From Chthoniobacteraceae bacterium (GTDB taxonomy: Bacteria > Verrucomicrobiota > Verrucomicrobiia > Chthoniobacterales > Chthoniobacteraceae): a stretch of 57,835 nucleotides of DNA. A model generated the notes under the pieces. That model did no database searches, was not told the DNA's origin, and was given only the letters and a program-made list of their open reading frames with translations. The translations under genes were made by a program, and so were the position numbers. Of the stretch, positions 6,507 to 19,666 are shown in pieces (the first letter of the stretch is position 1; each line of letters starts with the position of its first letter). The stretch spans positions 1-57,835 of the forward strand of contig JAQGOL010000001.1 of the NCBI GenBank assembly GCA_028293625.1, given 5' to 3'.

Positions 6507-6932
6507 TCACTGACCACCTAGGATGTTAGGCGGCATCACGAGGTTCGCGTTGGTATTAAAATCGAGCCTCGGGATGATCCACTCGGTGCCGGGCTTGTAA
6601 CAGTCAAAAGACATCCATGCCGCGCCCTTCTCAAATTTCGCGACCGCATAAACGCGGCGGGTTGAGGGGGAGAGTGCGATGGCACGAATGATTTCATAAC
6701 CGATCATTCGTCCGAACACGGACTGCACTTTTCCCATGCGCCTTACCACCTGGTCTTGCAGGTCGTCCTCGGATTCAATCGCCGATCCTGAAAGCCAGGC
6801 GTTGAAAGCCGCCAGCGAGCCATGTTTTTGGTACTCATCAAAACCTCTTGCAACCACTTCCGGGACAACGGCTTCCGCGGCGTGCGAAAGCGATGAGAAT
6901 AAGACGATAAAGAGAGAGAGAATCAACTTCAT
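6507..6932 (-). CDS. Small secreted protein of unknown function
   Basis: The product (141 aa) begins with a clear Sec signal peptide, MKLILSLFIVLFSSLSHAAEA, with probable cleavage after SHA. The mature part of about 120 residues starts with a helical segment (FDEYQKHGSLAAFNAWL) and then a beta-rich region (RVYAVAKFEKGAAWMSFDCY). It has one cysteine and no lipobox. I do not recognise a family. The start ATG 6932 is supported by the signal peptide; there is no Shine-Dalgarno. It is transcribed away from the 330-bp gap and converges with the oxidoreductase. Confidence 0.7.
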   Translation of the reverse strand: MKLILSLFIVLFSSLSHAAEAVVPEVVARGFDEYQKHGSLAAFNAWLSGSAIESEDDLQDQVVRRMGKVQSVFGRMIGYEIIRAIALSPSTRRVYAVAKFEKGAAWMSFDCYKPGTEWIIPRLDFNTNANLVMPPNILGGQ

Positions 6933-7262
6933 AGGGATTAGGGTTAAGCATTTAAGCTAACGGACCACTCCCAAAATTGAAACCGTCCTGTTTGAAAAAG
7001 CCTGAATGAGTCAACCACTCTTCTGGCTCGTATCCGAACATGTAGACCGGCCTTGCTGCACGGATCCCCGAGCCGGACTCTCGACCTGAATCAAGTTCGC
7101 CGCCTACTTATCGAGCACGCCGAACTCATTCATTTTTGTTGTTGACTTTATGATCCAAGACGATTCGGCTCCGGCTGAAACGCGCTGGTTAAGTGATTTG
7201 TAAGAGCCTGAAAATAAGGTGATTGTGAAACTGTTTGTGGCCGGTTTATCTATCCAATTTCC
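6933..7262. other. Divergent intergenic region, no gene seen
   Basis: This 330-bp stretch separates two divergent genes and should carry both promoters. I see no open frame with support, no tRNA-like fold and no strong palindrome. A weak promoter candidate for the downstream operon is TTGTGA (7223-7228), an 18-base spacer and TATCTA (7247-7252), which would start transcription almost at the ATG at 7263. Confidence in that promoter is low. Confidence 0.4.
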
Positions 7263-8033
7263 ATGGCTCCGGGTTTTGTTGACAGTGCCCGGCCGCGAGT
7301 TAGGCTAGGCGCCGAATTGAAAACTAATCACGCAGTCGCGCTGGGGACGATTCTCCTTTGGGCGGTGATGACATTCTCTCTCGGCGCTGCCGAATCGGAG
7401 AAACCGCCGGGTATTGGTTTGACGATAGTCTATGATACCTCCGGCAGTATGAAGGAGGCTGTCGTGGCGAGTGATGGAAAGCGTGTTCCAAAGTTTCAGA
7501 TCGCGAACCGCGCTTTGCTAAGCGTGGTCGACAAGTTGGAAGCCTTTCAGAAGAGCAACCCCGCTCAATTACTTCGCACAAGCCTTGTTATTTTCTCAAG
7601 AGAGAGCGGCCGCGTTGTTGTTCCTTTGGAGAACTTCGATCCCAAGCTATTTCGGACATGGATTCAGGGATTTGGCGTGCCTGATGGCGCGACTCCTTTA
7701 GGCGCTGCGATGCGTGTGGCTGCTCAACCGCTTCTTGATGGAAAGTTGCCGCGCTCGCATATCCTCGTTATCACAGACGGCGCAAACACAGTTGGTCCTG
7801 ATCCGGCCGCAGTCATTCCAGCCCTTCTTGCGGCGGCATCCGCGAGCGGCATCGGACTTAATATTCACTTTATCGCGTTCGATGTAGAGGCACGCGTGTT
7901 TGAACCGCTTAAGAAGCTGAATGTGACATTGCTCTCGGCTTCAAACGAAAAGCAGTTGGATGCGCAGCTTACATTGATCCTGGAGAGGAAAATCCTTCTT
8001 GAGGACGAGGAGACGCGGCCAGGGAAGCCGTAG
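7263..8033 (+). CDS. Exported von Willebrand factor A (vWA) domain protein
   Basis: First gene of a seven-gene envelope operon. The vWA fold is a metal-dependent protein-binding module. Its MIDAS motif is complete: DTSGS (D58, S60, S62 counted from ATG 7263), a threonine in DGATPLG, and TDGAN. Before it sits a hydrophobic export segment, LGTILLWAVMTFSLGAAES. The first 18 residues fit poorly as a signal peptide; an in-frame TTG at 7317 (giving KTNHAVALG) would give a cleaner one, so the start is uncertain. The protein probably works outside the inner membrane as an adaptor. The gap to the PspA gene is 36 bp. The partner is unknown. Confidence 0.8.
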   Translation: MAPGFVDSARPRVRLGAELKTNHAVALGTILLWAVMTFSLGAAESEKPPGIGLTIVYDTSGSMKEAVVASDGKRVPKFQIANRALLSVVDKLEAFQKSNPAQLLRTSLVIFSRESGRVVVPLENFDPKLFRTWIQGFGVPDGATPLGAAMRVAAQPLLDGKLPRSHILVITDGANTVGPDPAAVIPALLAAASASGIGLNIHFIAFDVEARVFEPLKKLNVTLLSASNEKQLDAQLTLILERKILLEDEETRPGKP

Positions 8034-8069
8034 TCGGCTACCGATCTATTTCACCTAACTACCACAACT

Positions 8070-8825
8070 ATGTTCAGAGCCATCAAAAGAATATTCATCT
8101 ACCTCGGGCTGTTAGCCGAGAAAGCCACGGAGAACGATGCGGTTAATCAAGCTGTCGTGGAGCGCGGGATTCGTGATGCGAAGGTTAAAGCGGACAAGGC
8201 TCATTACGCCAACGGTCAGCTGGCCAGTCAAATTGCAGTGCTAAGGGACCAGGTTAAACGGCAGATGCGCCAACGCGACGAGCTTCAGGGGATGTTGCAG
8301 GCAGCCGCGGCTGCAAATGATGAGGCGAATGGTGCCCATTACGCCGAGGAATTGGCCACCATGGATCAGGATATTGCCGATAACGAAGGGCAGCTCAAAA
8401 GTTTGGAGGAGCTTTACCACCAAAATACTCAGATCATCGCGCAGAGCCTCCGGGAAATTCAGAAATTCCAGCGCGAGTTTGAGACTGTCAAAGCGCGTGT
8501 CGCCGTGGGGCGTTCCCTTGAAAATCTTGCCGGCCTCATGAAAGGCTCAATCACCGAGCTTCAGGGCATGATGGGAGATGATCTTTCCCAGTCGATGCAA
8601 CAGTTGCGCCAGAGTGCTGCCGTCGGTGAGGGGCAGATGCGTGCCACCTTCGATCTTGCCAGGGAAATGGGCTCAAACGTCCAGCGTAAACAGGAGATGA
8701 AGCAGGCGCGCGGCGCCGCGCTTTTTCAGGAGTATAAAAAGAAGATGGGGCTCGTTCAGGGCGACGCCGCACCATCCACGGAGTCTGCTGCGCCGGTTGA
8801 GCAGCGACAGAAAATCGCGGAATAA
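8070..8825 (+). CDS. PspA/IM30 (Vipp1) family membrane-binding protein
   Basis: Long, charged helical protein (251 aa) with almost no breaks between residues 25 and 220, as expected for the PspA/IM30 family, bacterial relatives of ESCRT-III that polymerise on the inner membrane and stabilise or remodel it. The N-terminal amphipathic helix MFRAIKRIFIYLG fits the membrane-inserting helix 0. The tail (residues 228-251) is polar and probably disordered. PspA is normally controlled by PspF or a two-component system; none is next to it. Here the neighbours are an ABC importer and a AAA+ ATPase, unlike the classical psp operon, so I do not assign the pspA symbol. The following gene starts 17 bp downstream. 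Confidence 0.85.
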   Translation: MFRAIKRIFIYLGLLAEKATENDAVNQAVVERGIRDAKVKADKAHYANGQLASQIAVLRDQVKRQMRQRDELQGMLQAAAAANDEANGAHYAEELATMDQDIADNEGQLKSLEELYHQNTQIIAQSLREIQKFQREFETVKARVAVGRSLENLAGLMKGSITELQGMMGDDLSQSMQQLRQSAAVGEGQMRATFDLAREMGSNVQRKQEMKQARGAALFQEYKKKMGLVQGDAAPSTESAAPVEQRQKIAE

Positions 8826-8842
8826 CCCTCACCAAACTAACC

Positions 8843-10585
8843 ATGACATCACTCGGAAAGTTCGTTCTAACGCTTCTTATTCTGGCGGTCGTCGGATTTG
8901 GAATCACCCGCTGGTGGGACAAGATAGCGCCGGCTTCCTCACAGCAGCAGCAGGGAGTCTCGATTGATCCCAATGCATTAAAAGAGACGCTCGCCAAGCA
9001 GGGCGACAAGGAAAACGCCGTGGCGAACAAGTTGCTTGCCGGCGACAAGGCAGTGTCGTTGGTGGATGGCTCCGCCATTCCAGCCGTGGCTGGTGTGAGT
9101 GACTACGATAAGCCGATGAAGGACGGTAAATTTGTCGTCCAATTTCCAATCAACGTCTGGCCGGGGTGGGCGCCGATTATTGCCGCCAACAACGGGATGG
9201 AACCGAACCAGGAAAGTCTGTTTTTCAAAAAATACGGATTCTATGTGAAGCTCTCCCTTGTGGATGACCCGGTCAAAGCGCGCGACCTCTTCGCGAGCGG
9301 CCACAGCCATGTGCTCTGGGGCACCCTTGACATGATGGCTCTTTTTGCGCCTGAGCTGGCCAAGGATTCCCGCACGGTCCCCGTCATCTGCCAGCAGATC
9401 GACTGGTCAGCAGGCGGCGATGGAATCGTCGCGCGCGGTGATATCCGCTCAATCAACGATTTTCACTCCAAAGGCGGCAAACGGCGCAAAGTGGTATTGG
9501 CCCAGAATTCGCCCAGCCATTACTTCATCATTTCGCTGCTCGTGGACGCGGGAATTGATCCTGCCGAAGTAGACTTTCGTTGGGCGGGAGACGCGCCTGC
9601 GGCAGCCAAAATTTTCGTTCAGGACAAATCTTTTGATGCATTTATTGGCTGGTCTCCTGACATCTATACTGTGTCCGACCAGCTCAAGGATACGCGCCTT
9701 GTTTTAAGCACCGGCAGCGCCAACCATCTCATTGCCGATGTCTGGGCTGTGCGAAACGATTTCTACCGTGATCACCCGGACATTGTTGCCAATCTCGCAC
9801 GGGGCATTTTTGAAGGCATGGACATCGTGCGCAAGAACGTGCCCAACGCCGCGAAGTTGCTTTCAGCTGCTTACGGTTTGCCGGTGGAAGATTGCACCTC
9901 GATGATCGGCAAGGATGGCGGCGTCGCCGAGGGAGATGCGCATCTCGCCAACTACCGCGAGAATGCCAACTTCTTTCTCGATCCGATGAACCCCTCGAAC
10001 TTCGAGGTTGTTTGGAACCGTGCTTCCACCATTTATAAGAGTCTGGGGGCGATCAGTGCGCCGGTACCCGCCGCCAAGGTCAAGGCCGGTCAGGTCATGG
10101 CCAAGATGGCCGATGAATACAAGGAAGTGCGCGATCTTTCCCAGGCAACTTTTAAGCCCGGTGCGCTCTTTAAGAACGCGGAGGCGGAGAACGGGGAGAT
10201 CCTGACAAAATCGGTGATCATAACCTTTCCTCCAAACAAGTCAGTGCTCGATACCAACTACGACGCGAACATCCCAACGGTTTTGGAAGAAGTAGGCAAA
10301 CTTGCCGGATCTTTTGGCAATGCTTACATCGTCATTGAAGGGAACACGGATGGAAGTCGAAAAGGAATCGTGCCGGCTGATCTGGTTCGGCAATTGAGCT
10401 ATGATCGCGCCGATTCAGTCAGAAAGACCATTCTGGAAAAATACAAGTTCGATCCGAACAAGTTTAAGGTCATCGGCAACGGCTGGGAAAATCCCGTCGC
10501 CGGAATGAACGATGCGAGTAATCAGGAGCATAATCAGAAAAACCGTCGCGTTGAGATAAAAGTGTTCCCTTTGGAAAAAGAATAG
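8843..10585 (+). CDS. Membrane-anchored solute-binding protein fused to an OmpA-like peptidoglycan-binding domain
   Basis: The 580-residue protein has three parts. Residues 5-23 form an uncleaved-looking transmembrane anchor (FVLTLLILAVVGFGITRWW) with no lipobox. About 95-400 is a type II periplasmic-binding fold of the SsuA/NMT1 kind (INVWPGWAPIIAANNG, later GSANHLIADVWAVRND). About 445-577 is an OmpA-like domain, with EGNTDGSR, LSYDRADSVRKTI and NRRVEIKV, the peptidoglycan-binding signature. ABC importer binding proteins are usually soluble or lipid-anchored, so tying one both to the inner membrane and to the cell wall is unusual. The permease and ATPase genes follow, separated by a stem-loop at 10598-10639. 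The ligand is unknown; nitrate, sulfonate or thiamine-precursor binding is family precedent only. Confidence 0.88.
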   Translation: MTSLGKFVLTLLILAVVGFGITRWWDKIAPASSQQQQGVSIDPNALKETLAKQGDKENAVANKLLAGDKAVSLVDGSAIPAVAGVSDYDKPMKDGKFVVQFPINVWPGWAPIIAANNGMEPNQESLFFKKYGFYVKLSLVDDPVKARDLFASGHSHVLWGTLDMMALFAPELAKDSRTVPVICQQIDWSAGGDGIVARGDIRSINDFHSKGGKRRKVVLAQNSPSHYFIISLLVDAGIDPAEVDFRWAGDAPAAAKIFVQDKSFDAFIGWSPDIYTVSDQLKDTRLVLSTGSANHLIADVWAVRNDFYRDHPDIVANLARGIFEGMDIVRKNVPNAAKLLSAAYGLPVEDCTSMIGKDGGVAEGDAHLANYRENANFFLDPMNPSNFEVVWNRASTIYKSLGAISAPVPAAKVKAGQVMAKMADEYKEVRDLSQATFKPGALFKNAEAENGEILTKSVIITFPPNKSVLDTNYDANIPTVLEEVGKLAGSFGNAYIVIEGNTDGSRKGIVPADLVRQLSYDRADSVRKTILEKYKFDPNKFKVIGNGWENPVAGMNDASNQEHNQKNRRVEIKVFPLEKE

Positions 10586-10597
10586 GTCCGGTTGGCA

Positions 10598-10639
10598 AGA
10601 TGCGCCGGGTGGAGCGGTTCCTGCCGCGCCGGCGCATTT
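10598..10639 (+). other. Strong stem-loop between binding-protein and permease genes
   Basis: The arms AGATGCGCCGG (10598-10608) and CCGGCGCATTT (10629-10639) pair over 11 bp with one G-U. The loop contains a second 4-bp pairing (GCGG 10614-10617 with CCGC 10624-10627). Only a short T run follows. In ABC operons such a hairpin after the binding-protein gene often protects the upstream mRNA or lowers readthrough, so the binding protein is made in excess; that role here is inferred. Confidence 0.6.
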
Positions 10640-10672
10640 CCGACCTTTGATAGCGCTTCACCTTTGCCTGTT

Positions 10673-11530
10673 ATGATTGGATTCTTTGCATTCGCCATTG
10701 GGTTCTCGCTGTTACTGACTATTTTGGTTCGCGTTGCGGGACTAAACGTCCGGCGCGGTTTGCCAAAACAAAATCAGGCGCTCTTAACCCTGAGTTTTAT
10801 TGGACTTGTGATATTGGCCTGGTGGCTATTCACGCGCGGCGACCGGATAGAAGAGCGTATGATTGCGCCATTGATTCTACCGAGTCCGTCGGAAGTCATG
10901 CATGCCTATCCAAAGCTGCATTTCGAGCAGGCTCTTGTGCGGAGCGCCTTGCAATCATTTGAGCGGGTTACAATCGGCTTTACACTCGCCGCCATTGTGG
11001 CCGTGCCGCTTGGTGTTTTTATGGCCAGTTTTGGCGCCGTGGCCGCCTTTTTCCGGCCACTCGCCTTGATGGGGGCCTATGTGCCGATTGTTGTATTTAT
11101 CCCGCTTTCGCTGGCTTGGTTTGGATTGGGCGAAACGCAGAAGATCGGGTTTCTTTTTATTGGTTGTTTTGTTGCGCTCCTCCCGCTCGTGATCCGCGCC
11201 GTGGATGATGTGCCTCGGGCGTTTCTCGATGTGGCGGTCACCAAGGGCGCCACGCAATGGCAGTTGGTCTGGCATGTCCTTTTTCCCGTCGCGCAAGCGC
11301 AGATTTGGGAGAACCTGCGCGCCGTCTATGGCGTGGGCTGGGGGTGGATCATATTGGCTGAAGTAGTCAATGCGCAGGCCGGTCTTGGCTACTTGATCTC
11401 CATCTCCGAACGGCGCGGCCATACAGCGGCTATCTTCGCCATCATCTTCGTCATTGTCCTGATCGCGGTAGCTTGCGACCAATTATGGCGGCTCGGAGCC
11501 CGGTTGTTGTTTCCCTACCGGTTCAAGTAA
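10673..11530 (+). CDS. ABC transporter permease, SsuC/TauC type
   Basis: Inner-membrane permease of the importer encoded here. From ATG 10673 it has 285 residues with about seven hydrophobic segments, beginning MIGFFAFAIGFSLLLTILV. A longer frame from a TTG at 10592 would put the stem-loop inside the gene and add a non-hydrophobic leader, so the ATG is preferred. The EAA-type loop that docks on the ATPase is visible as DVAVTKGATQWQLVWHVLFP, and the segment LPSPSEVMHAYPKL resembles the start of the SsuC/TauC core. One permease gene implies a homodimer. The ATPase gene starts 18 bp downstream. Confidence 0.9.
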   Translation: MIGFFAFAIGFSLLLTILVRVAGLNVRRGLPKQNQALLTLSFIGLVILAWWLFTRGDRIEERMIAPLILPSPSEVMHAYPKLHFEQALVRSALQSFERVTIGFTLAAIVAVPLGVFMASFGAVAAFFRPLALMGAYVPIVVFIPLSLAWFGLGETQKIGFLFIGCFVALLPLVIRAVDDVPRAFLDVAVTKGATQWQLVWHVLFPVAQAQIWENLRAVYGVGWGWIILAEVVNAQAGLGYLISISERRGHTAAIFAIIFVIVLIAVACDQLWRLGARLLFPYRFK

Positions 11531-11548
11531 TTCAACAGCGCTTTTTCT

Positions 11549-12478
11549 ATGAGCACGGACAATCCCGTTCCCAATCCGCCCTCTTCTTCCAATCCTCCCC
11601 TGGAGTGCGCAACACTTTCCGCATCCGGCAGCGAAGCCGGCTTGCCGGAGGTGGTTACCTTTCGCAATGTCAGCAAATCGTTCGGCTTCGGTCCCGAGGA
11701 GAAGGTTGCCATTAAAGACGTCTCATTCATCGTCCACGACCTTCCCGGACAAGGTGAGCTGGTTTGTCTTGTGGGTCCGTCGGGATGCGGAAAATCGACC
11801 GTGTTGCGGATTATCGCCGGTCTTTCCCCGCAGTTCCCGCCAACGAGTGGTGAAACGCTCGTGTTTGGACAACCGATCAGCGGCCCGAGCGCGGAGCGCG
11901 GCGTTGTGGACCAGAAGTATTCGTTGCTGCCGCATCTTACGGTAATTGAAAACATTGCATTTGGACTGATGCTGCGCGGCATGCCGCTCAAAGAGCGACG
12001 CGCTTTGGCGGGGGATTGGGTGAAAAAAGTCGGGCTTGAAGGTGCCGAAGGAAAATATCCTTCGGAGCTCTCCGGCGGCATGCAACAGCGCGTGGCAATC
12101 GCCGCGACATTGATTCTTCGGCCGAAGATTCTATTGATGGATGAGCCGTTTGGCGCGCTCGATCCCAAGATCAGGCTGCGGATGCAGGAACTGCTGCTTG
12201 AACTCTGGAAAGAGCAGGAAGGAACGGTTTTCTTTGTTACACATTCCGTGGAGGAAGCCGTCTATCTCGGGGACCGTGTTTTTCGAATGGCGGCCAATCC
12301 CGGGCGTTTGGTGGAGGAACTTCGGGTGGAACGGCCCGATGAACCGTTGATGGGGATGCGCCAGCGTCCCTGGTTTATGGAACTGACACAGGAATTGCTG
12401 CACCGGCTTGAACATGATGCTTTGGCATCAGGCGCCTTGCGTGGTTCGCGTGTTGTGCCCCATCTTCATTCCCGATGA
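11549..12478 (+). CDS. ABC transporter ATP-binding protein, SsuB/TauB type
   Basis: Cytoplasmic ATPase that powers the adjacent permease. All motifs are intact: Walker A GPSGCGKST, Q-loop VDQKYSLLP, signature LSGGMQQR, Walker B ILLMDEPFGALD and the H-loop THSVEEA. The first 33 residues are a proline- and serine-rich extension not usual in the family. The C-terminal 60 residues after the H-loop (RVERPDEPLMGMRQRPW) match the SsuB/TauB group. Its stop overlaps the start of the next gene by 4 bp (ATGA), so the coiled-coil protein is translationally coupled to the transporter. Confidence 0.93.
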   Translation: MSTDNPVPNPPSSSNPPLECATLSASGSEAGLPEVVTFRNVSKSFGFGPEEKVAIKDVSFIVHDLPGQGELVCLVGPSGCGKSTVLRIIAGLSPQFPPTSGETLVFGQPISGPSAERGVVDQKYSLLPHLTVIENIAFGLMLRGMPLKERRALAGDWVKKVGLEGAEGKYPSELSGGMQQRVAIAATLILRPKILLMDEPFGALDPKIRLRMQELLLELWKEQEGTVFFVTHSVEEAVYLGDRVFRMAANPGRLVEELRVERPDEPLMGMRQRPWFMELTQELLHRLEHDALASGALRGSRVVPHLHSR

Positions 12479-13416
12479 GTGAAAGTGATTCACCTGGTTA
12501 TCACCTTGAGTTTTTAAAAAGTCCGCACCACGGCTGGCTTGGATTGCTGACTCTGGGCATGGGATTTGTGACCGGGCACGCGTTGCCGTTGGTGCTCGGA
12601 GCCACCGCCTACGCCATTGGCTGGATCTACGTGCCCGACCTCCCGTTTTTCCGCCATTGGGTCGATCGCCGGCGCGACCAGAGCGTTCGAGCCGTGGAAG
12701 AGGCGAAAGTCGTGGAATTTAAAAAAAGGCGCGATGCGTTGCTGGGCTCGCTTGCAGCCGAGCGGCTTGGCCGTTACCAGGCGCTCGCCGCGGTTTGCCA
12801 AAATATCGAAGTGGCCAGTGCCGAAAGCGCGCTTGGAGGAAATGGATTTGACCCGCGCTTGCGCAAGCTCGACGAACTGATGTGGACCTATTTGCGGCTT
12901 CTTTCAATTGAAGAATCGCTGGAGCGCTTTGTGGAAACCGAACGGTTGGAAGGGGTTCCATCACTGGTGCATCAGGCTGAGGGCGAAGTGGCGCATCTCG
13001 GCGCGGAAATTGAAAGCCTCAAAGCGCAGGGCGGCAAGTCGCTTGAAAATCGGGAGCGTTTTCTTGCCTCCAGAATGGAGCGTCTTGAGGTGCTTCATAA
13101 GCGGCTCGAACGCAGCCAGCAAGCCACTGACAACCTGGCCCTGGTCGTCGCTGAAGAGGAACGCCTCGATCAACAGATTAAACTCATCCGCGCCGATGCC
13201 GTGGCTTCCCGAAATGCCGGCGCTTTAACGGCCCGGATCGATGCCACCGTGGAGCACCTGGATGAAACCAATCGATGGCTGTCAGAAATGGACGAGTTTA
13301 AGGATCTGGTTGGCGACCTTCCAAATACGGAACTGCGGGTCGGTTTTAGTCCATCCACAATGCCTCCGCCCATCCCGCAATCCCGGCCGTCGGCCCGAGG
13401 ACGAATCCGCCAATGA
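12475..13416 (+). CDS. Membrane-anchored coiled-coil protein of unknown function
   Basis: The product (313 aa) has two hydrophobic segments near the N terminus (about residues 19-35 and 38-55, TLGMGFVTGHALPLVLGATAY onward contains both ends) followed by about 220 residues of charged helix rich in heptad-like spacing, then a proline-rich tail (STMPPPIPQSRP). Topology suggests that the coil faces the cytoplasm, where PspA and the AAA+ ATPase act. I do not recognise a named family. It overlaps both neighbours by 4 bp (ATGA at 12475 and at 13413), so it is made in step with the ABC ATPase and the AAA+ protein. A scaffold or adaptor between membrane and ATPase is an inference from architecture. 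Confidence 0.7.
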   Translation: MSESDSPGYHLEFLKSPHHGWLGLLTLGMGFVTGHALPLVLGATAYAIGWIYVPDLPFFRHWVDRRRDQSVRAVEEAKVVEFKKRRDALLGSLAAERLGRYQALAAVCQNIEVASAESALGGNGFDPRLRKLDELMWTYLRLLSIEESLERFVETERLEGVPSLVHQAEGEVAHLGAEIESLKAQGGKSLENRERFLASRMERLEVLHKRLERSQQATDNLALVVAEEERLDQQIKLIRADAVASRNAGALTARIDATVEHLDETNRWLSEMDEFKDLVGDLPNTELRVGFSPSTMPPPIPQSRPSARGRIRQ

Positions 13417-15164
13417 ATCCCGCTGAAGTTTCACCACTCCCATTGCGCGGATGGGCCATGGAACTGGCACGCCGATGGAATGGCGCCACCTATTCACTCT
13501 TCATTCTTCACGGCAATATCTTCGACGTTTTTCCCGTGCAGGAGGCAGGCGGCACCGCCTATGTGCCGCTTAAAACATTCCTTTCGCGCCGGCTGTTTCC
13601 CGATCGCGGTTTTCTCCTTTTTTACGATATCAGCGACGGGCTTACCTTCGGAAACGCGGAAATGCAGAAGCTCTTTTTCGAATGGCTTGCGGTTTATGAC
13701 CAGGTCGAAAATACCGCTTTTCGCCAGCAGGGCCCGCCGAGGGAATTCACGCGCATCGCACCGCTGCTTCGCCGTTTTTTTCTTCACGCCGCCGAACAAA
13801 ATAAAAAGAGCATCACACTGGTCATCGATTTTCCTGAAAAAATCGTCCCGGCTTCCGCCGACGCGCATTCGAGCATCGATGAACGGATGGCGCTGGTGAC
13901 ACTCCTGAAATGGGCGACCGAGATGCGGCGTCTCGATATCGGTCTGCTGCTGGTGACCGAAGCGTCAGCGAAACTTGCCGGTGATTTGCTTCAAAATCCG
14001 CACGTCGCGCAGGTCGCCATCGAATTGCCCGAAGCCGGGGAACGCCTTCGTTTTTTGCAAGCGTACGCGGCGGCGAGAAACCAGCCGGTCGAAGCGTGGA
14101 GCGACTTTTCTCTTGAAGAATTGGCCGGGCAGCTTTCCGGGCTCAATCTCAGCCGCATTGAGCATCTACTGGCGGAAGCGGTTGGCAACGGCGGACGCAT
14201 CACGGCGCAACATGTTGGTTTGGGTAAAAAGCGTCTCATCGAGGAGTACTGCCAGGGGCTTGTGCGGTTTAAGAATCCAAAGCCGGGAATGAATCTCGAC
14301 GCGGTTGCCACTCATGGTGCGGCCAAGGCGCGGCTCCGGGAGCTGGCATGGCTGATCGCCAACGGCAAACGCGACGTCCTTGAACGCGGCGTCCTTCTGC
14401 CGGGTCGTGTTGGGGTTGGAAAATCGTTCCTCGTTGATTGTTTTGCCAGTGAGTGCGGGCTGCCCATGATGGAGCTTGGCGAATTCCGCTCGAAATGGGT
14501 GGGCGACACCGAACTCCAACAAGGGCGCATCCTGATGACCATCCGCGCGTTGGGTCCGGTGATCGTGGTCGTTGATGAAGCCGATGCCGTCTTCGGCACC
14601 CGCGAGGCCGACGGCGACAGCGGGGTTTCCGGCCGCGTTTTTGCCGCGTTCGCGGCGCATTTGGGCGATTCAAGTCTACGCGGCCGGGAGCTTTGGATCG
14701 CGATGACTTCGCGTCCTGATCTCCTTTCCATCGATATGAAACGTCAGGGCCGGTTCGGGTTGTGCATCCCGCTTTTTCCCGCCCAGGGCCACAACGACGT
14801 TCTTGAGCAATTTAATGCCATCGCCAGTTTTAAAAAAATCACGCTCACCGAGCCGATGCTGGCGTTCGTCGACGAAACGCTCGGCGCACGGGCGCTGACA
14901 GGCAGTGATGTGGACGCCATGCTTACCAGGGCCAAGGAACGTGCCGTTCTTGCGGGCCGCGACCAGAGTTTGGAAGTCGTTGATCTTCAGGAGGCGGTGA
15001 ATTCGTTTATCGATCCGCTCGATCCGCAGTTGCTTGCGCTTCAGGAACTGGCAGCCGTGCTGGCTTGTTCAGACCGTCGATATTTGCCCGATCATTACGC
15101 GAACGCGGATCGTGCCTCGCTTTCCGCCAAGTTTGCGCTTCTGAAGGGACGCTTGCGCAGGTAG
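13413..15164 (+). CDS. AAA+ ATPase with degenerate N-terminal AAA-like half
   Basis: The product has 583 residues. The C-terminal half is a classic AAA module: Walker A GRVGVGKS (331-338), a pore-loop-like KWVGDTE (361-367), Walker B VIVVVDEADAVFG (D388, E389), sensor-1 region AMTSRPD and arginine-finger region RQGRFG (R444, R447), with a small helical lid after about 470. The N-terminal half (about 25-260) has a AAA-like strand order (ITLVIDFPEKI, then LLLVTEAS) but no Walker A lysine, so it is probably structural. FtsH, spastin and Vps4-like AAA domains share these features. It has no membrane helix or protease domain. It is last in the operon with PspA, suggesting remodelling of PspA polymers or of the membrane complex. 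Confidence 0.82.
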   Translation: MNPAEVSPLPLRGWAMELARRWNGATYSLFILHGNIFDVFPVQEAGGTAYVPLKTFLSRRLFPDRGFLLFYDISDGLTFGNAEMQKLFFEWLAVYDQVENTAFRQQGPPREFTRIAPLLRRFFLHAAEQNKKSITLVIDFPEKIVPASADAHSSIDERMALVTLLKWATEMRRLDIGLLLVTEASAKLAGDLLQNPHVAQVAIELPEAGERLRFLQAYAAARNQPVEAWSDFSLEELAGQLSGLNLSRIEHLLAEAVGNGGRITAQHVGLGKKRLIEEYCQGLVRFKNPKPGMNLDAVATHGAAKARLRELAWLIANGKRDVLERGVLLPGRVGVGKSFLVDCFASECGLPMMELGEFRSKWVGDTELQQGRILMTIRALGPVIVVVDEADAVFGTREADGDSGVSGRVFAAFAAHLGDSSLRGRELWIAMTSRPDLLSIDMKRQGRFGLCIPLFPAQGHNDVLEQFNAIASFKKITLTEPMLAFVDETLGARALTGSDVDAMLTRAKERAVLAGRDQSLEVVDLQEAVNSFIDPLDPQLLALQELAAVLACSDRRYLPDHYANADRASLSAKFALLKGRLRR

Positions 15165-15182: not shown

Positions 15183-16796
15183 CTACTCGGAAACAACCTG
15201 TGCAATGGCGGATTTGAGCCGCTCCGCGGAGACCGGCTTTTCAAGGAGCAGATCGACCCCGGCAGGACGTTTGCCATCCGGGAGCATCATCTCGCCAAAA
15301 CCGGTCGTCATGATGATAGGAAGGGCCGCATCGATTTCCCGCGCCGCATGGGCCAGCTGCCCGCCGTGCATTTTTGGCATCGAGAAATCGGTAAGCAGCA
15401 GATCAAACTTCTGCGACTGAAGGGTTAGCAACGCTTCGTGACCGTCACTTGCGGTGGCCACGATATGACCGGCGCGTTCAAGTATCTCTGAGAGGATCTC
15501 GCGGATTTGTTCATCGTCGTCGACGATCAGCACCTGCAGGGAACGGCGCATCCTGCTGCTTTGGGCCGCGGCCACCATCGCCGGCGCCCCCTCCTGTGGC
15601 AGGGAGACCCGAAACGTGCTTCCGACTTCCGGCTCGCTTTCAATCTCCACGCTCCCGCCATGGCGCCGGACAATGCCGAATACCATCGCAAGCCCCAGGC
15701 CGGTCCCTTTCTCTCCTTTGGTCGTATAAAACGGTTCAAGGCAGCGGCCACGCACTTCCTCGCTCATTCCGTGGCCCGTGTCACTGATCTCAAAAACGGA
15801 GCGGTTGGCGGCCGCCCCGGTGCGCAAGGTGAGCGTGCCGCCTTCAGGCATCGCGTCGATGGCATTGAAAATGAGGTTGATCATCACCTCGCGCATTTCC
15901 GAAGGGTTGCATGCGATGGCCGGCACTTTTTCCAGTTCCAGTTTGACTGTGATGACACGTCCTTCAGCCAGCGCCTGGTCTTTCCAACGCGGTTTGCTAA
16001 GGTGCGATGCCTGATCAAGAAGCATCCGCAGATCAGCGATTTCAAACAGATCATCCTCGTGCCGGGGCCGATAAAAATGGCGCAATCGGCGGACGACCTG
16101 CGCCGCATCCTGGGAGGCGGTATTCATTGCCTGGATGCATTTAATGGTCCGCTCGCGGCTGTTCAGGATATCGGTTTCAAGCAGCAGATCGCTGTAGCCG
16201 AGCAGAATTCCCAGGCTGTTGTTAAAGTCGTGCACCACGCCGCTGGCCATCTCGCTAAACGCGTGGAGCCGTTCCTGCAGGATGGCTTGTTGCTGGCTTG
16301 TTTTCAACTCAGCCAGGGTTGACTCCAGTTCTTTTGTGCGTTCCGCCACCACGGCATCGAGGCGCCGGTTCTGATTTTGCAATCCGCGATGCAGATAACG
16401 CAGTTCAAGCAGATTTCTGACCCGCAAATGGAGTTCAGTCGCGTCAAAAGGCTTGGTTAAAAAATCGCGCGCCCCGGCGGTCAGCGCCCGTTTTTTTGTG
16501 CCTGGCGAAACGTCGGCGGTAAGGACGATGATCGGCAGAAACTGATCGGGAGCAATGCGGCCAAGCAACTGTTCCATGACGGCAAATCCGTCAAGATGCG
16601 GCATCATCAGGTCGAGCAGGATAATGTCGGGCTCAAACTTTTCAAAAAGCGCGAATGCCTGGCGTGGATCGGTCGTGCTGCAAAAATGAAGCTGTCCTTC
16701 CGCTTCAAGATTGCCTTCGAGCAGCCGCACATTGGCCAGCTCATCGTCGATGATCAGGAAACGTGCGTCCCGGATGAAATTGTGGAGAGCGTTCAC
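15183..16796 (-). CDS. Hybrid sensor kinase: REC - coiled coil - histidine kinase - REC
   Basis: Soluble phosphorelay protein (537 aa). It has an N-terminal receiver with phospho-acceptor D62 (ILLDLMMP), a coiled linker (about 135-175), a HisKA segment with H189 in VVHDFNNSLG, an ATPase domain (N box around N307-N311, DTGHGMS, GTGLGLAM) and a C-terminal receiver with D470 (LLLTDFSMP). There is no membrane segment. It starts at a GTG (16796) that overlaps the TGA of the upstream kinase, so the two are translationally coupled. No DNA-binding output domain is present in either protein. The signal probably enters through phosphate transfer from the upstream LOV kinase to D62. It converges with the AAA+ gene; the gap is only 18 bp. 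Confidence 0.9.
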   Translation of the reverse strand: MNALHNFIRDARFLIIDDELANVRLLEGNLEAEGQLHFCSTTDPRQAFALFEKFEPDIILLDLMMPHLDGFAVMEQLLGRIAPDQFLPIIVLTADVSPGTKKRALTAGARDFLTKPFDATELHLRVRNLLELRYLHRGLQNQNRRLDAVVAERTKELESTLAELKTSQQQAILQERLHAFSEMASGVVHDFNNSLGILLGYSDLLLETDILNSRERTIKCIQAMNTASQDAAQVVRRLRHFYRPRHEDDLFEIADLRMLLDQASHLSKPRWKDQALAEGRVITVKLELEKVPAIACNPSEMREVMINLIFNAIDAMPEGGTLTLRTGAAANRSVFEISDTGHGMSEEVRGRCLEPFYTTKGEKGTGLGLAMVFGIVRRHGGSVEIESEPEVGSTFRVSLPQEGAPAMVAAAQSSRMRRSLQVLIVDDDEQIREILSEILERAGHIVATASDGHEALLTLQSQKFDLLLTDFSMPKMHGGQLAHAAREIDAALPIIMTTGFGEMMLPDGKRPAGVDLLLEKPVSAERLKSAIAQVVSE

Positions 16797-19666
16797 GTCG
16801 CTGGAGTGAGGTAACGGCTGAAGAGGCGGAGGATGCTTTCCACTTCGATCGGTTTGGTGATGTAGTCGTTGGCGCCGGCCGCCAGGAGCCGGTGCGCCTG
16901 CCTGCTCATCGCATCAGCGCTAATGATGACAATGGGCGTGCCGCTTAGAAGCCGCTCGTCGCGAAGCTGCGAGAGCACTTGTTCGCCGCCGAGATCGGGC
17001 AGATGAAGGTCGAGCAGGATCAACGCGGGCCGATGGGCCAGCGCCAATGGCAATGCGTCGCCACCACGCGTGGCGGTGATAAGCCGCACCCCCGCATGTT
17101 CACTTGCGACGTGTTCCATTAAACGCAGGTTTGCCGGGTTGTCCTCCACGTAAAGCACATTCCGCTTGGTGCGGAACCGGCCGTTTTCTCCATAAAAAGC
17201 GGATTTTTCTTTCGGGAGACTTAACTGCGCGTTGGCGGCCATCGGCAGAACAAGCGAGAACGTGCTGCCCCGGCCCACCTCGCTTTGTACCTCAATGACG
17301 CCTCCCATGAGCGTCGCCAGCTGCCGGGAAAGCGCCAGTCCGATCCCGTGTCCTTCAATTCCTTCGTGTTCGGCGCCCAGACGCTCGAACGGGACAAAAA
17401 GCCGCTCCATTTTTTCCGCGGAAATGCCGCGGCCGGTATCGTGGATGTGAATGCACAAAAGCGCGGGCAACCGCTTTTGACAGTCGACGCTCACTGTGCC
17501 GCCGTCGTGATTATACTTGATGGCATTGGAGAGGAGGTTCACAAAAATCTGTTTGAGCCGCTGCCTGTCGGCGGTAACAAAACGGTCTGCCATATCTATC
17601 AAATTGACATCAAATCGAATCGCACGCGATTCGGCCAGATTTTGAACCAGGCTGAGGCTTTCCTCCAGGGCATCGGATATTTCCACCGATTCGGCGGAGA
17701 TGCTCGTATTGCCGGATTCAATGCGGGTCAAATCAAGCACCTCGTCGATGAGATCGAGCAAATGGCGGCCGCCTTTGGCGATGAAACCGACGCTTTCAGT
17801 TTGCCGTTCATCAAGTGGGCGACGTTGTAAAAGCTGGCTGAAACCGAGGATCGCATTGAGCGGTGTGCGCAGTTCGTGGCTCATGCGGGAAAGAAACGCG
17901 CTTTTGGCCGCATTGGCGCGTTCGGCTTCCGCCTTCGCCTGTTGAAGTTTTTCCTCGACCTGTTTGCGTGCGGAGATGTCGCGCATATGGCCGGTGAACA
18001 TGGGCGGCCCATCGCTCACGATCCGCATAATGGTGAGCTCGATGGGAAACTCACTCCCATCGGAGCGCATCGCGGAGAGCTCCAGGCGTTTGCCCAGCAC
18101 GGGGCCTTCGCCGGTTTCCAGAAAACGCCGAATCCCATTCCGATGCGCTTCCCGGTACTGGGGCGGCACGATGAGCATCGCCATCTCCTTGCCGATCATT
18201 TGCGCGGCGCTGTAACCGAAGATTGTCTCCGTGGCGAAATTGATTTCCACCACGCATCCCTGGTGGTCGATCGTCAGGATCGAATCGAGGGAGGCTTCCA
18301 AAATTGCTGTGTGGCGAGCCTTGCTTTGATGCAGCGCTTCCTCAGTCTGTTTACGGGCGGTAATGTCGGTGGAAATTCCACAGAGCGCATACGGCTGCCC
18401 CTCGCTGTCGCGCAGCGGGAATTTAAGAGAAAGATACGTATGCGCCCCGTCGGCCTGCATGACGGTTTCCTCAAATTCCAGCGAGCTGTTTGTCGCGAAC
18501 ACGCGCCGGTCGTTTTCGTGCAGCAATAACGCGATCTGCGGGGAGTGAAACGCCGAGTCGGTGTTTCCCAGGATAGCCGATTCGCCTTGCGGAGAAAACA
18601 ATGTGCAGAATTGCCGGTTCGCCAATAGATAACGGCCGCCGGTATCCTTCACGTAAATGAGCGACGTGGTATTATCGAGGATCGCTTGCAAGCGGGCTTC
18701 GCTCTCTCTGAGTGCCTGTTGGGCATTGACCCGCGCCGTCACGTCGTTCTGCAATCCCACGAAGTTCAAAAGCGTTCCATCGGCGTCAAAAACCGGGTTG
18801 ATCATCAGCTCATTCCAAAAGGAAACCCCGCCTTTTCCGTAATTTAAGAGCAGCCCGTTAAAAGGCCGGCGCGCGGCGATGGCTTCGCGCATTTTCCGAA
18901 CTATTTCGCGATCCGTGCCGGGCCCCTGCATGAAGCGGCAGTTGTGCCCCAGGACATCCTCGGATTTGTAGCCGGTGATCTTTTCAAAGGCCGGGTTGAC
19001 GAAAACCGCCGGGTTGTCAGGAAGATTGGGATCGCTGACGAGCACTCCCACATTGGTGCTGTTGATGGCGGTGCTTAAAAGGCTGTTTCGGCGCAACGCC
19101 AGACGCAGCTCCTTGTTCGATTTCTCAAGCTCCGCCGCGATCGACTTTTTTTCGGCCAACTCAGCCTGCAACCGTTTTTGACTGCTCCGAAACTCCAACT
19201 CGTCGACAACGAGCGCGGCCAGATCGGCCAGAGTCGCCTCTTCAAGCAACGAAAATGCGCGCGCTTTCATGTCGACAAGGCAGAGTGTGCCTATGGAGTG
19301 GCCATCCGCTGTCTTGAGCGGTGCGCCCGCATAAAAACGGACGCCCGGCGGACCTGCGACCATCGGATTATCCGCAAACCGCGGGTCGAGGGTCAGGTCT
19401 GGCACGGTGGTGACTTTTGTTGAGAGGATAGTGTGGGCGCAGAAAGAAATCTCGCGGCCGGTTTCTTTCAGATCGACTCCAAAACACGATTTGAACCACT
19501 GCCTGTTGGCGTCAATGAGCGAAACGAGCGCGATTGGAACCGAGAAAATCCGCGCAGCCAGCGAAGTAATCCGATCAAACGGCGCCTCCGGCGGTGTATC
19601 GAGAATATTGTAACTAATTAGCTTAAGTAGACGCTCGGTTTCAGCGGGTGGATTTGGAGGACGCAT
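16793..19666 (-). CDS. GAF-LOV-PAS-PAS hybrid histidine kinase, probable blue-light sensor
   Basis: Large soluble sensor kinase (957 aa). The domains run: GAF (about 20-160), a LOV-type PAS (195-315), two further PAS domains (about 320-440 and 445-570), HisKA with H597 in MSHELRTPLNA, an ATPase domain (DTGRGIS, GHGIGLAL) and a C-terminal receiver with D886 (LILLDLHLPD). The LOV domain has the full flavin set: GHNCRFMQGPGTD with the photo-adduct cysteine C243, then NYGKGG (N275), FWNEL (N285) and GLQNDVT (Q306). This is the signature of FMN-binding photoreceptors, so blue light is a likely input, with the GAF and PAS domains adding others. It is the first gene of a two-gene operon. Confidence 0.92.
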   Translation of the reverse strand: MRPPNPPAETERLLKLISYNILDTPPEAPFDRITSLAARIFSVPIALVSLIDANRQWFKSCFGVDLKETGREISFCAHTILSTKVTTVPDLTLDPRFADNPMVAGPPGVRFYAGAPLKTADGHSIGTLCLVDMKARAFSLLEEATLADLAALVVDELEFRSSQKRLQAELAEKKSIAAELEKSNKELRLALRRNSLLSTAINSTNVGVLVSDPNLPDNPAVFVNPAFEKITGYKSEDVLGHNCRFMQGPGTDREIVRKMREAIAARRPFNGLLLNYGKGGVSFWNELMINPVFDADGTLLNFVGLQNDVTARVNAQQALRESEARLQAILDNTTSLIYVKDTGGRYLLANRQFCTLFSPQGESAILGNTDSAFHSPQIALLLHENDRRVFATNSSLEFEETVMQADGAHTYLSLKFPLRDSEGQPYALCGISTDITARKQTEEALHQSKARHTAILEASLDSILTIDHQGCVVEINFATETIFGYSAAQMIGKEMAMLIVPPQYREAHRNGIRRFLETGEGPVLGKRLELSAMRSDGSEFPIELTIMRIVSDGPPMFTGHMRDISARKQVEEKLQQAKAEAERANAAKSAFLSRMSHELRTPLNAILGFSQLLQRRPLDERQTESVGFIAKGGRHLLDLIDEVLDLTRIESGNTSISAESVEISDALEESLSLVQNLAESRAIRFDVNLIDMADRFVTADRQRLKQIFVNLLSNAIKYNHDGGTVSVDCQKRLPALLCIHIHDTGRGISAEKMERLFVPFERLGAEHEGIEGHGIGLALSRQLATLMGGVIEVQSEVGRGSTFSLVLPMAANAQLSLPKEKSAFYGENGRFRTKRNVLYVEDNPANLRLMEHVASEHAGVRLITATRGGDALPLALAHRPALILLDLHLPDLGGEQVLSQLRDERLLSGTPIVIISADAMSRQAHRLLAAGANDYITKPIEVESILRLFSRYLTPAT
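18722..19084 (-). other. LOV domain coding segment of the hybrid kinase
   Basis: Approximate DNA span of the LOV domain, residues 195-315 of the 957-residue kinase. The cysteine codon expected to form the flavin adduct is TGC at 18940-18938 (minus strand). The cysteine, two asparagines and the glutamine that normally hold FMN are all present. Confidence 0.85.

Follow-up and report, generated by a model that had tools for sequence, protein, structure and literature searches.

We analysed a 57,835-nucleotide stretch of DNA from a Chthoniobacteraceae bacterium (contig JAQGOL010000001.1, positions 1 to 57,835), called the window below, and describe here a seven-gene operon within it. In order, its genes appear to encode an exported vWA-domain protein (V), a divergent PspA/IM30-type protein (P), a membrane-anchored solute-binding protein with an OmpA domain (S), an ABC permease (m), an ABC ATPase (a), a coiled-coil protein (C) and a Cdc48-type AAA+ ATPase (A). 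The operon is real, widespread and co-inherited, and it has largely been catalogued already. We see about an even chance that it encodes an ATP-driven machine of the ESCRT-III (endosomal sorting complex required for transport III) kind, which would remodel the inner membrane by means of PspA and would be regulated from the periplasm by a peptidoglycan-tethered binding protein.

Conservation and co-inheritance of the gene set

Named genomes were scanned with the alignment of A, which gave at least 375 relatives, and the best 80 loci were kept and all scored with profiles of the seven families, so that the numbers below are counts and not frequencies. P, S, m, a, C and A were all present in 18 of the 80 loci, which represent five phyla: Verrucomicrobia with Lentisphaerae, Acidobacteria, Elusimicrobia, Planctomycetota and Kofleriaceae (Myxococcota), with one locus from an 'uncultured bacterium'. 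The order P-S-m-a-C-A was kept in 16 of the 18, from Verrucomicrobiota (including Lentisphaerae-named bins), Acidobacteriota, Elusimicrobiota and Myxococcota; the two permuted loci are both from Planctomycetota (P-A-S-m-a-C in Planctomycetaceae and C-A-P-S-V-m-a in Sedimentisphaerales). V was found in 11 complete loci, standing first in 10 and inside the operon in one. The set is thus not confined to this strain; such a confinement is what the earlier note on this DNA had named as telling against its proposal. Shorter forms were also observed: a truncated S-m-a-C-A locus in Gemmatimonas (L105) and, among the 55 loci in which 6.5 kb or more of sequence precedes A, A alone (26 loci), P-A (6), P-C-A (3) and C-A (3).

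Three of the complete loci (L063, L065 and L066) correspond to the genomes G214, G171 and G217 and are the same evidence, not independent. Six P-like proteins of divergent sequence, picked by eye from L019 and L050-L054, served as seeds of the P profile; P matches there by construction, and these loci are not in the 80-locus counts. Genes were called as the longest open reading frames (ORFs), a procedure that is error-prone in high-GC loci and joined some frames, so that gap lengths in loci such as L117, L118, L146 and L147 are approximate. The fragment L089 was left out of alignment A4, L062 out of A5, and the fragments L069, L105 and L125 out of A6.

The genes of the operon are co-inherited even when they are unlinked. 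In the family of the window, P was sought in 36 genomes, A in 40, and C and S in 22 of the 40; these and the other genome searches scored only the best candidates from a first pass. Besides the window genome (G000), P was found at 68-75% identity in G008, G013, G028 and G031, where A was 66-67% identical, so that a strong P and an A above 60% coincide in five genomes; among the 22 genomes searched for them, full-length S and C were found in these five as well and in no others. Weak P matches in G001, G011 and G022 (E 1e-6 to 2e-4, 23-27% identity) were not counted beside the five strong ones. Two further genomes of the family carry partial S-like binding proteins, and the only other A, in G001, is about 30% identical and of a different P-A subtype, A being present in 6 and absent from 34 of the 40 genomes. 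Among the five genomes, a single operon was seen in the window only: P, C, S and A lie on four different contigs in G013, G028 and G031, and in G008 P-S and C-A lie apart on two contigs.

Across a phylum sample of 288 genomes, C was found in nine and A in 17, and all nine genomes with C, which represent seven families, also have A (p 7e-13 for this overlap, a value that treats genomes as independent, which they are not). C and A are 1.7 Mb apart in the single-contig genome G302. Genomes whose A stood alone were also searched (24 of 26, with L099 and L134 left out); one of them, L068, seems to be G028, as the C and S coordinates are the same, and the family and lone-A tests overlap by this genome. 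C was present elsewhere in the genome in 19 of the 24, and in 13 of these 19 C is preceded on its own strand by a PspA match, 256-816 bases away, with no S match at E 1e-20 in any of the 13. In two of the 19 (L146 and L147, Planctomycetota), P-S-m-a-C stand together in this order.

The operon is composed of two modules, a P-C-A core and a detachable S-m-a part. Evolutionary distances over the 18 complete loci and the window correlated at r 0.96-0.98 among P, C and A and at 0.91-0.96 among S, m and a, against 0.84-0.92 between the two groups. This split was the best of 10 (464 of 499 bootstraps) and was also the best in the 12 loci outside the window clade. The earlier note had proposed an envelope machine that joins PspA, a wall-tethered ABC importer, vWA and an AAA+ ATPase. 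Conserved order and co-inheritance support such a machine as far as it combines PspA and an AAA+ protein with a binding protein tethered to the wall, but the ABC importer seems detachable rather than central, because it is absent beside S in some variants and because P, C and A occur without detectable S.

In Verrucomicrobia, S without adjacent m and a was found in L042, L043, L070, L071 and L015 (the last from G008). These S proteins form a subfamily of their own (63-86% identity within it, 60% with L019 and 27-31% to the window S), whereas in L070 and L071 the identities to the window proteins are 76% for P, 49% for C and 61-64% for A. The subfamily suggests that the role of S needs no adjacent transporter, which favours a sensor or a tether. 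Within a divergent group, transporter genes are present in L050 and L054 and absent from L051 and L053, L052 being truncated. Its common set is S, V, a second anchor protein bearing an OmpA domain, and A. Genes resembling P and C were recognised there by eye, but Pfam gave no PspA match for the P-like protein in L050, and the C profile misses the C-like gene. The loci L050:831-11532 and L054:9516-19998 contain up to nine genes, including two OmpA-bearing or anchor proteins, a vWA protein, a further binding protein, a permease, an ATPase and A.

A second, distant C occurs in the window genome and in G013, behind a solute-binding-vWA fusion of 555-562 amino acids and an anchored second binding protein, and no P or A match was found at either locus within the 17 kb taken. 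This trio (Table 1) could be a separate but related system, and the fusion next to the second C hints at a joint action of V and S. P and C also adjoin in Rhodothermales- or Bacteroidetes-named genomes (L143:6577-11354, L151:4395-10425 and L152:7340-11543). The flotillin FloA lies near them in L143 (NF010186, E 4.9e-164) and, by eye, in L151 and L152, and a CNNM/GldE-like protein follows them in L152 (TIGR03520, E 1.2e-64); these neighbours give a hint of a link to membrane microdomains.

Properties of the seven proteins

P scores below the Pfam cut-off for PspA_IM30 (PF04012; 16.6 bits against 33.9, E 0.0063), so that its PspA membership rests on profile and fold comparison. Among the operon P homologues, 19 of 27 match PspA_IM30 at E up to 0.01 (best 6.8e-36). 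The P clade of the window aligned along its whole length with operon PspAs from other phyla (hhalign prob 99.1, E 5e-19), and the joint alignment of both matched Vipp1/PspA structures at E 1e-16; the profile of the window P clade alone gave no PspA match in the PDB. In the AlphaFold2 model of P (mean predicted local distance difference test score, pLDDT, 68), the hairpin blocks reach 79-96, and a Foldseek search of the PDB with this model returned Vipp1/PspA at all of ranks 1-8 (best E 4e-3, prob 1.0). P thus appears to have profile homology to PspA/Vipp1 and their helical-hairpin fold. The sole PspA of the window genome above the Pfam cut-off lies at another locus (L016:9565-10745, minus strand, G000:C39) beside a 151-residue protein without an NCBIfam match, a pair that by description recalls the CesT/Tir-PspA dyads in the passages of PMC11237479 that deal with them.

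A matches the AAA family (PF00004, E 1.6e-17) and, without reaching the cut-off, TIGR01243 (E 2.8e-16), and its nearest PDB matches are VCP/Cdc48. Of 81 A homologues, 79 carry the Walker A pattern in the C-terminal half and only one carries it in the N-terminal half, where A of the window has HGN-x-x-D at the expected place; D388-E-A-D, R444 and R447 are found in all 81. A thus has the classical-clade AAA domain of Cdc48/VCP but neither a second active AAA domain nor an N domain, no CDC48_N match being listed by Pfam. Likewise, Pfam listed no MIT match at E up to 1, and neither a sigma-54 activator domain nor a helix-turn-helix (HTH), both expected of a PspF, was among the Pfam and NCBIfam matches. 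Judged by its sequence, A is a Cdc48-type ATPase without a MIT domain, and not a Vps4.

C had no family match better than E 0.01 in Pfam or NCBIfam, and among 32 C homologues only single members matched assorted unrelated families. Its AlphaFold2 model (mean pLDDT 90.5) is all-helical, with helices at 17-33, 36-55 and 57-92 and further ones up to 189-245, and shows a long coiled-coil part after two short N-terminal helices. Read by eye in the model, these two helices are a probable membrane hairpin; no 19-residue segment exceeded the hydropathy threshold applied. Kinship of C with Snf7 or PspA was considered and was not supported, as hhalign gave prob 0.6 to PspA and no ESCRT-III chain was among the best 50 of 649 PDB matches of the model (best E 0.088). 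By profile and model, gene 6 is not demonstrably a Snf7 homologue.

In S, an N-terminal hydrophobic anchor is followed by an SsuA/TauA-type binding domain (TIGR01728, E 6.5e-9, under the family cut-off) and then by the OmpA domain (PF00691, E 7.7e-9); no lipobox was seen by eye. The Asp and Arg of OmpA-type domains hold the diaminopimelate of peptidoglycan. The corresponding D503 and R522 of S are nearly invariant among 22 aligned proteins, and the TD and RA motifs correspond in the alignment to Omp38 (3td3). With both the family match and the wall-site residues, S probably carries a peptidoglycan-binding domain of the OmpA type. The permease m matches BPD_transp_1 (PF00528, E 3e-17) and NF040733 (E 2.3e-30, under the cut-off), and a matches ABC_tran (PF00005, E 2.7e-28) and NF008421 (E 3.1e-62, under the cut-off). 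Every score listed for S, m and a against the TauABC/SsuABC equivalogs is below the curated cut-off, and the ligand of S can be placed at the family level only, as probably TauA/SsuA/NMT1-like. A separate binding protein/permease/ATPase set related to S, m and a is located at L179:8277-11183 (plus strand, G000:C32), and its binding protein (322 amino acids) matches the binding part of S only.

V has an N-terminal hydrophobic segment (residues 24-42) and a vWA domain (PF13519, E 1.3e-8). The residues of the metal ion-dependent adhesion site (MIDAS) motif have known roles in vWA domains, and the motif is complete in V, with D-x-S-x-S, T and D invariant in all 13 aligned members. The family labels of the earlier note therefore hold for the vWA protein, the OmpA/binding protein, the permease, the ABC ATPase and the AAA protein, whereas the PspA label is matched by Pfam only below its cut-off and C belongs to no named family.

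Proposed mechanism and rival explanations

Our model starts from the observed gene set and order, the co-inheritance, the modular structure, the intact ATPase motifs and the PspA-like fold. P would polymerise as a coat on the inner leaflet of the inner membrane, and C, anchored in this membrane by its helical hairpin, would hold P and A there through its cytosolic coiled coil. A would form an AAA+ ring in which the N-terminal AAA is a dead scaffold and the C-terminal AAA hydrolyses ATP, and by pulling on or extracting P subunits it would turn over the PspA coat. S would be anchored in the inner membrane and grip peptidoglycan with its OmpA domain, while its binding domain, aided by V, would report a small solute or the state of the wall. 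In the full seven-gene form, S may also feed the ABC transporter, either for ligand import or for signal relay. It is the contacts, the direction of signalling, the ligand and the remodelling activity that we infer in this model. A more specific reading is conceivable though rather doubtful: P-C-A would be a bacterial ESCRT, consisting of a PspA polymer, a dedicated Cdc48-type AAA+ disassemblase not derived from Vps4, and a membrane adaptor, to which several phyla would have added a ligand sensor tethered to peptidoglycan, letting a signal from a solute or from the wall time the remodelling of the inner membrane.

Several observations weigh against the proposed mechanism. With a pLDDT of 68 the model of P is of mediocre quality, and its Foldseek matches all fall short of E 1e-3. 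In the Verrucomicrobia clade, P shares just 14-20% identity with the operon PspAs of other groups and may be a replacement. A lacks the MIT domain, which is the grip of Vps4 on ESCRT-III, and its N-terminal domain shows just a weak resemblance to its C-terminal AAA domain (hhalign prob 2.8). V is missing from 7 of the 18 complete loci. A stands alone in 37 of the 80 loci (26 of the 55 whose upstream sequence extends for 6.5 kb or more). In the phylum sample, no C was found at E 1e-15 in 8 of the 17 genomes that have A (five of the 8 belong to the divergent L050-type group), and 5 of the 24 lone-A genomes have no detectable C; the lone loci and the latter five genomes suggest that A may have other jobs. 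The distance correlations that define the modules take no account of shared ancestry, and the locus counts come from the best-scoring relatives.

The operon could instead be an importer of the sulfonate/taurine type in the first place, with its binding protein tethered to the wall and with P, C and A merely assembling, protecting or recycling the transporter. S, m and a do resemble TauABC/SsuABC by family scores, albeit all under the equivalog cut-offs, and their distances correlate with one another (r 0.91-0.96). However, where S has no adjacent m and a it diverges into its own subfamily, whereas in L070 and L071 the P, C and A proteins keep close to those of the window, and in the 13 genomes with P-C and a lone A a genome-wide search, which among S, m and a covered S alone, gave no match at E 1e-20; we consider this account unlikely. 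It is also improbable that the genes form a stress circuit in which A regulates PspA in the manner of PspF, or acts as a Cdc48/FtsH-like unfoldase for membrane-protein quality control with PspA as its adaptor. The nearness of A to VCP/Cdc48 and the occurrence of lone A loci would fit such a role, but A matches no sigma-54 activator or HTH, C matches no chaperone or protease, and no protease domain was found among the seven proteins (Pfam, NCBIfam).

vWA and AAA+ modules reportedly recur in conflict systems, and the patchy distribution of A (6 of the 40 family genomes) would suit a system for phage defence or another kind of conflict, assembled from vWA, AAA+ and membrane components. PADLOC gave matches to mad3 (gene 5, E 7e-28), IetA (gene 7, E 1e-6) and ZorB (gene 3, E 2e-5), but these sit on the ABC, AAA and OmpA superfamily regions; as none of the seven proteins matches a nuclease or toxin family (Pfam, NCBIfam) and the gene order is kept in loci of four phyla, a conflict system is very improbable. 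As for known defence systems, PADLOC found only mad3/mad8/AriA-like (a), IetA-like (A) and ZorB-like (OmpA domain of S) components, and no system was complete. Finally, the absence of A from 34 of the 40 family genomes might suggest coincidental neighbours or an operon peculiar to the strain, an explanation already refuted by the order kept in 16 of the 18 complete loci and by the co-inheritance of the scattered genes.

Operon layout, neighbours and known systems

According to the ORF list and the domain searches, V, P, S, m, a, C and A form one directon on the plus strand (7263-15164), and since both flanking ORFs (6507-6932 and 15183-16796) are on the minus strand, it contains exactly seven genes. 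The gaps are 36, 17, 6 and 18 bases between genes 1-2, 2-3, 3-4 and 4-5, and genes 5-6 and 6-7 overlap by 4 bp each. Close orthologues of gene 4 align from residue 28 on, so that its start is probably the ATG at 10673, in which case the gap between genes 3 and 4 is 87 bases. The measured strands and spacing agree with the earlier description of seven same-strand genes with short gaps or 4-bp overlaps, and the genes are likely, as judged from the sequence, to form one transcript. In a scan for promoter-like and terminator-like sites, scores were not above those of shuffled sequences, and no promoter match fell within the intergenic region upstream of gene 1.

Table 1. Coordinates of the operon genes, the upstream region and the paralogous trios
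Feature	Position	Strand	Basis
Gene 1 (V), exported vWA-domain protein, 256 aa	7263..8033	+	PF13519, hydrophobic segment, MIDAS
Gene 2 (P), divergent PspA/IM30-type protein, 251 aa	8070..8825	+	profile and fold comparison
Gene 3 (S), inner-membrane-anchored TauA/SsuA-type solute-binding domain with C-terminal OmpA domain, 580 aa	8843..10585	+	
Gene 4 (m), TauC/SaoP-type ABC permease	10592..11530	+	PF00528, NF040733
Gene 5 (a), TauB/SaoA-type ABC ATPase	11549..12478	+	PF00005, NF008421
Gene 6 (C), helical coiled-coil protein with probable membrane hairpin, no named family, 313 aa	12475..13416	+	
Gene 7 (A), Cdc48-type AAA+ ATPase, N-terminal AAA degenerate, C-terminal AAA intact, 583 aa	13413..15164	+	
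Divergent intergenic region, 330 bp, presumed location of the operon promoter	6933..7262		lies between divergent genes
Paralogous trio (SBP_bac_11 + VWA fusion, second anchored SBP_bac_11 protein, C-family protein), window genome	L178:8284-11961 (G000:C26)	-	
Paralogous trio, same composition, G013	L180:8015-11724 (G013)	-	

Upstream, the minus-strand ORF at 6507-6932 diverges from the operon and shares its upstream region; it encodes a small, probably exported protein of 141 amino acids without a credible Pfam or NCBIfam match. At the other end, two large sensor kinases (15183-19666, minus strand) point towards the operon; one contains a HATPase domain together with two receiver domains, and the other, by eye, has GAF/PAS-like parts.

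Section 18 of PMC11237479 (mSystems, 2024) describes an operon of PspA, Snf7 homologues bearing transmembrane (TM) segments, a two-AAA ATPase, an ABC ATPase, a permease and a PBPB-OmpA protein, with OGG56892.1 as an example; there the N-terminal AAA copy is inactive and an ATP-dependent membrane remodelling linked to solute transport is proposed. Compared with this section by description, the window operon has the same components bar V, the same kind of AAA+ protein and the same link between remodelling and solutes. The suspicion of the earlier note that parts were already catalogued was thus well founded, six of the seven components and their linkage being covered in that section. The two differ in V, as neither vWA nor Willebrand occurs in the main text of PMC11237479 (0 occurrences), and, if gene 6 is what section 18 calls the TM-bearing Snf7 homologues, in that no such similarity was found here. 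The co-inheritance of scattered genes, the split genomes, the P-C-A core with its modularity and the transporter-less S subfamily are additions to the account in that section. No experimental study of this operon was found in the open-access library that was searched.

As in the ESCRT-III/Vps4 systems (CdvB/CdvC), an ESCRT-III-superfamily protein is encoded beside a classical AAA+ ATPase; unlike them, the window operon has PspA and not Snf7, an ATPase without MIT and with a degenerate N-terminal domain, an OmpA domain, and a bacterial host. The passages of PMC11188069 on ESCRT loci confine Vps4-ESCRT systems to archaea and eukaryotes and place a solute-binding protein, ProX, in archaeal Meth_adaptin ESCRT loci, a parallel to S. 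The classical Psp system (pspABC-pspF) likewise combines a PspA-type protein with an AAA+ protein, but no PspB or PspC is among the seven and A is not a sigma-54 activator by Pfam and NCBIfam. The TauABC, SsuABC and NrtABC importers share the binding protein, permease and ATPase families, whereas S is membrane-anchored and fused to a wall-binding domain and the scores stay under the equivalog cut-offs.

Whether bacterial PspA/Vipp1 has a Vps4-like partner ATPase is called an open question in the passages of PMC8281802 and PMC11746142 that address it, the latter naming chaperones or PspF as possibilities. A is a defined candidate for a PspA motor; it is inherited together with PspA and a membrane adaptor, also in genomes where their genes are unlinked. 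The operon offers a three-protein core amenable to purification, and the parts of the system are separated by natural variants with or without transporter genes and with or without the sensor. The value of the operon lies in offering a testable candidate for the idea that PspA polymers may have a bacterial motor of their own.

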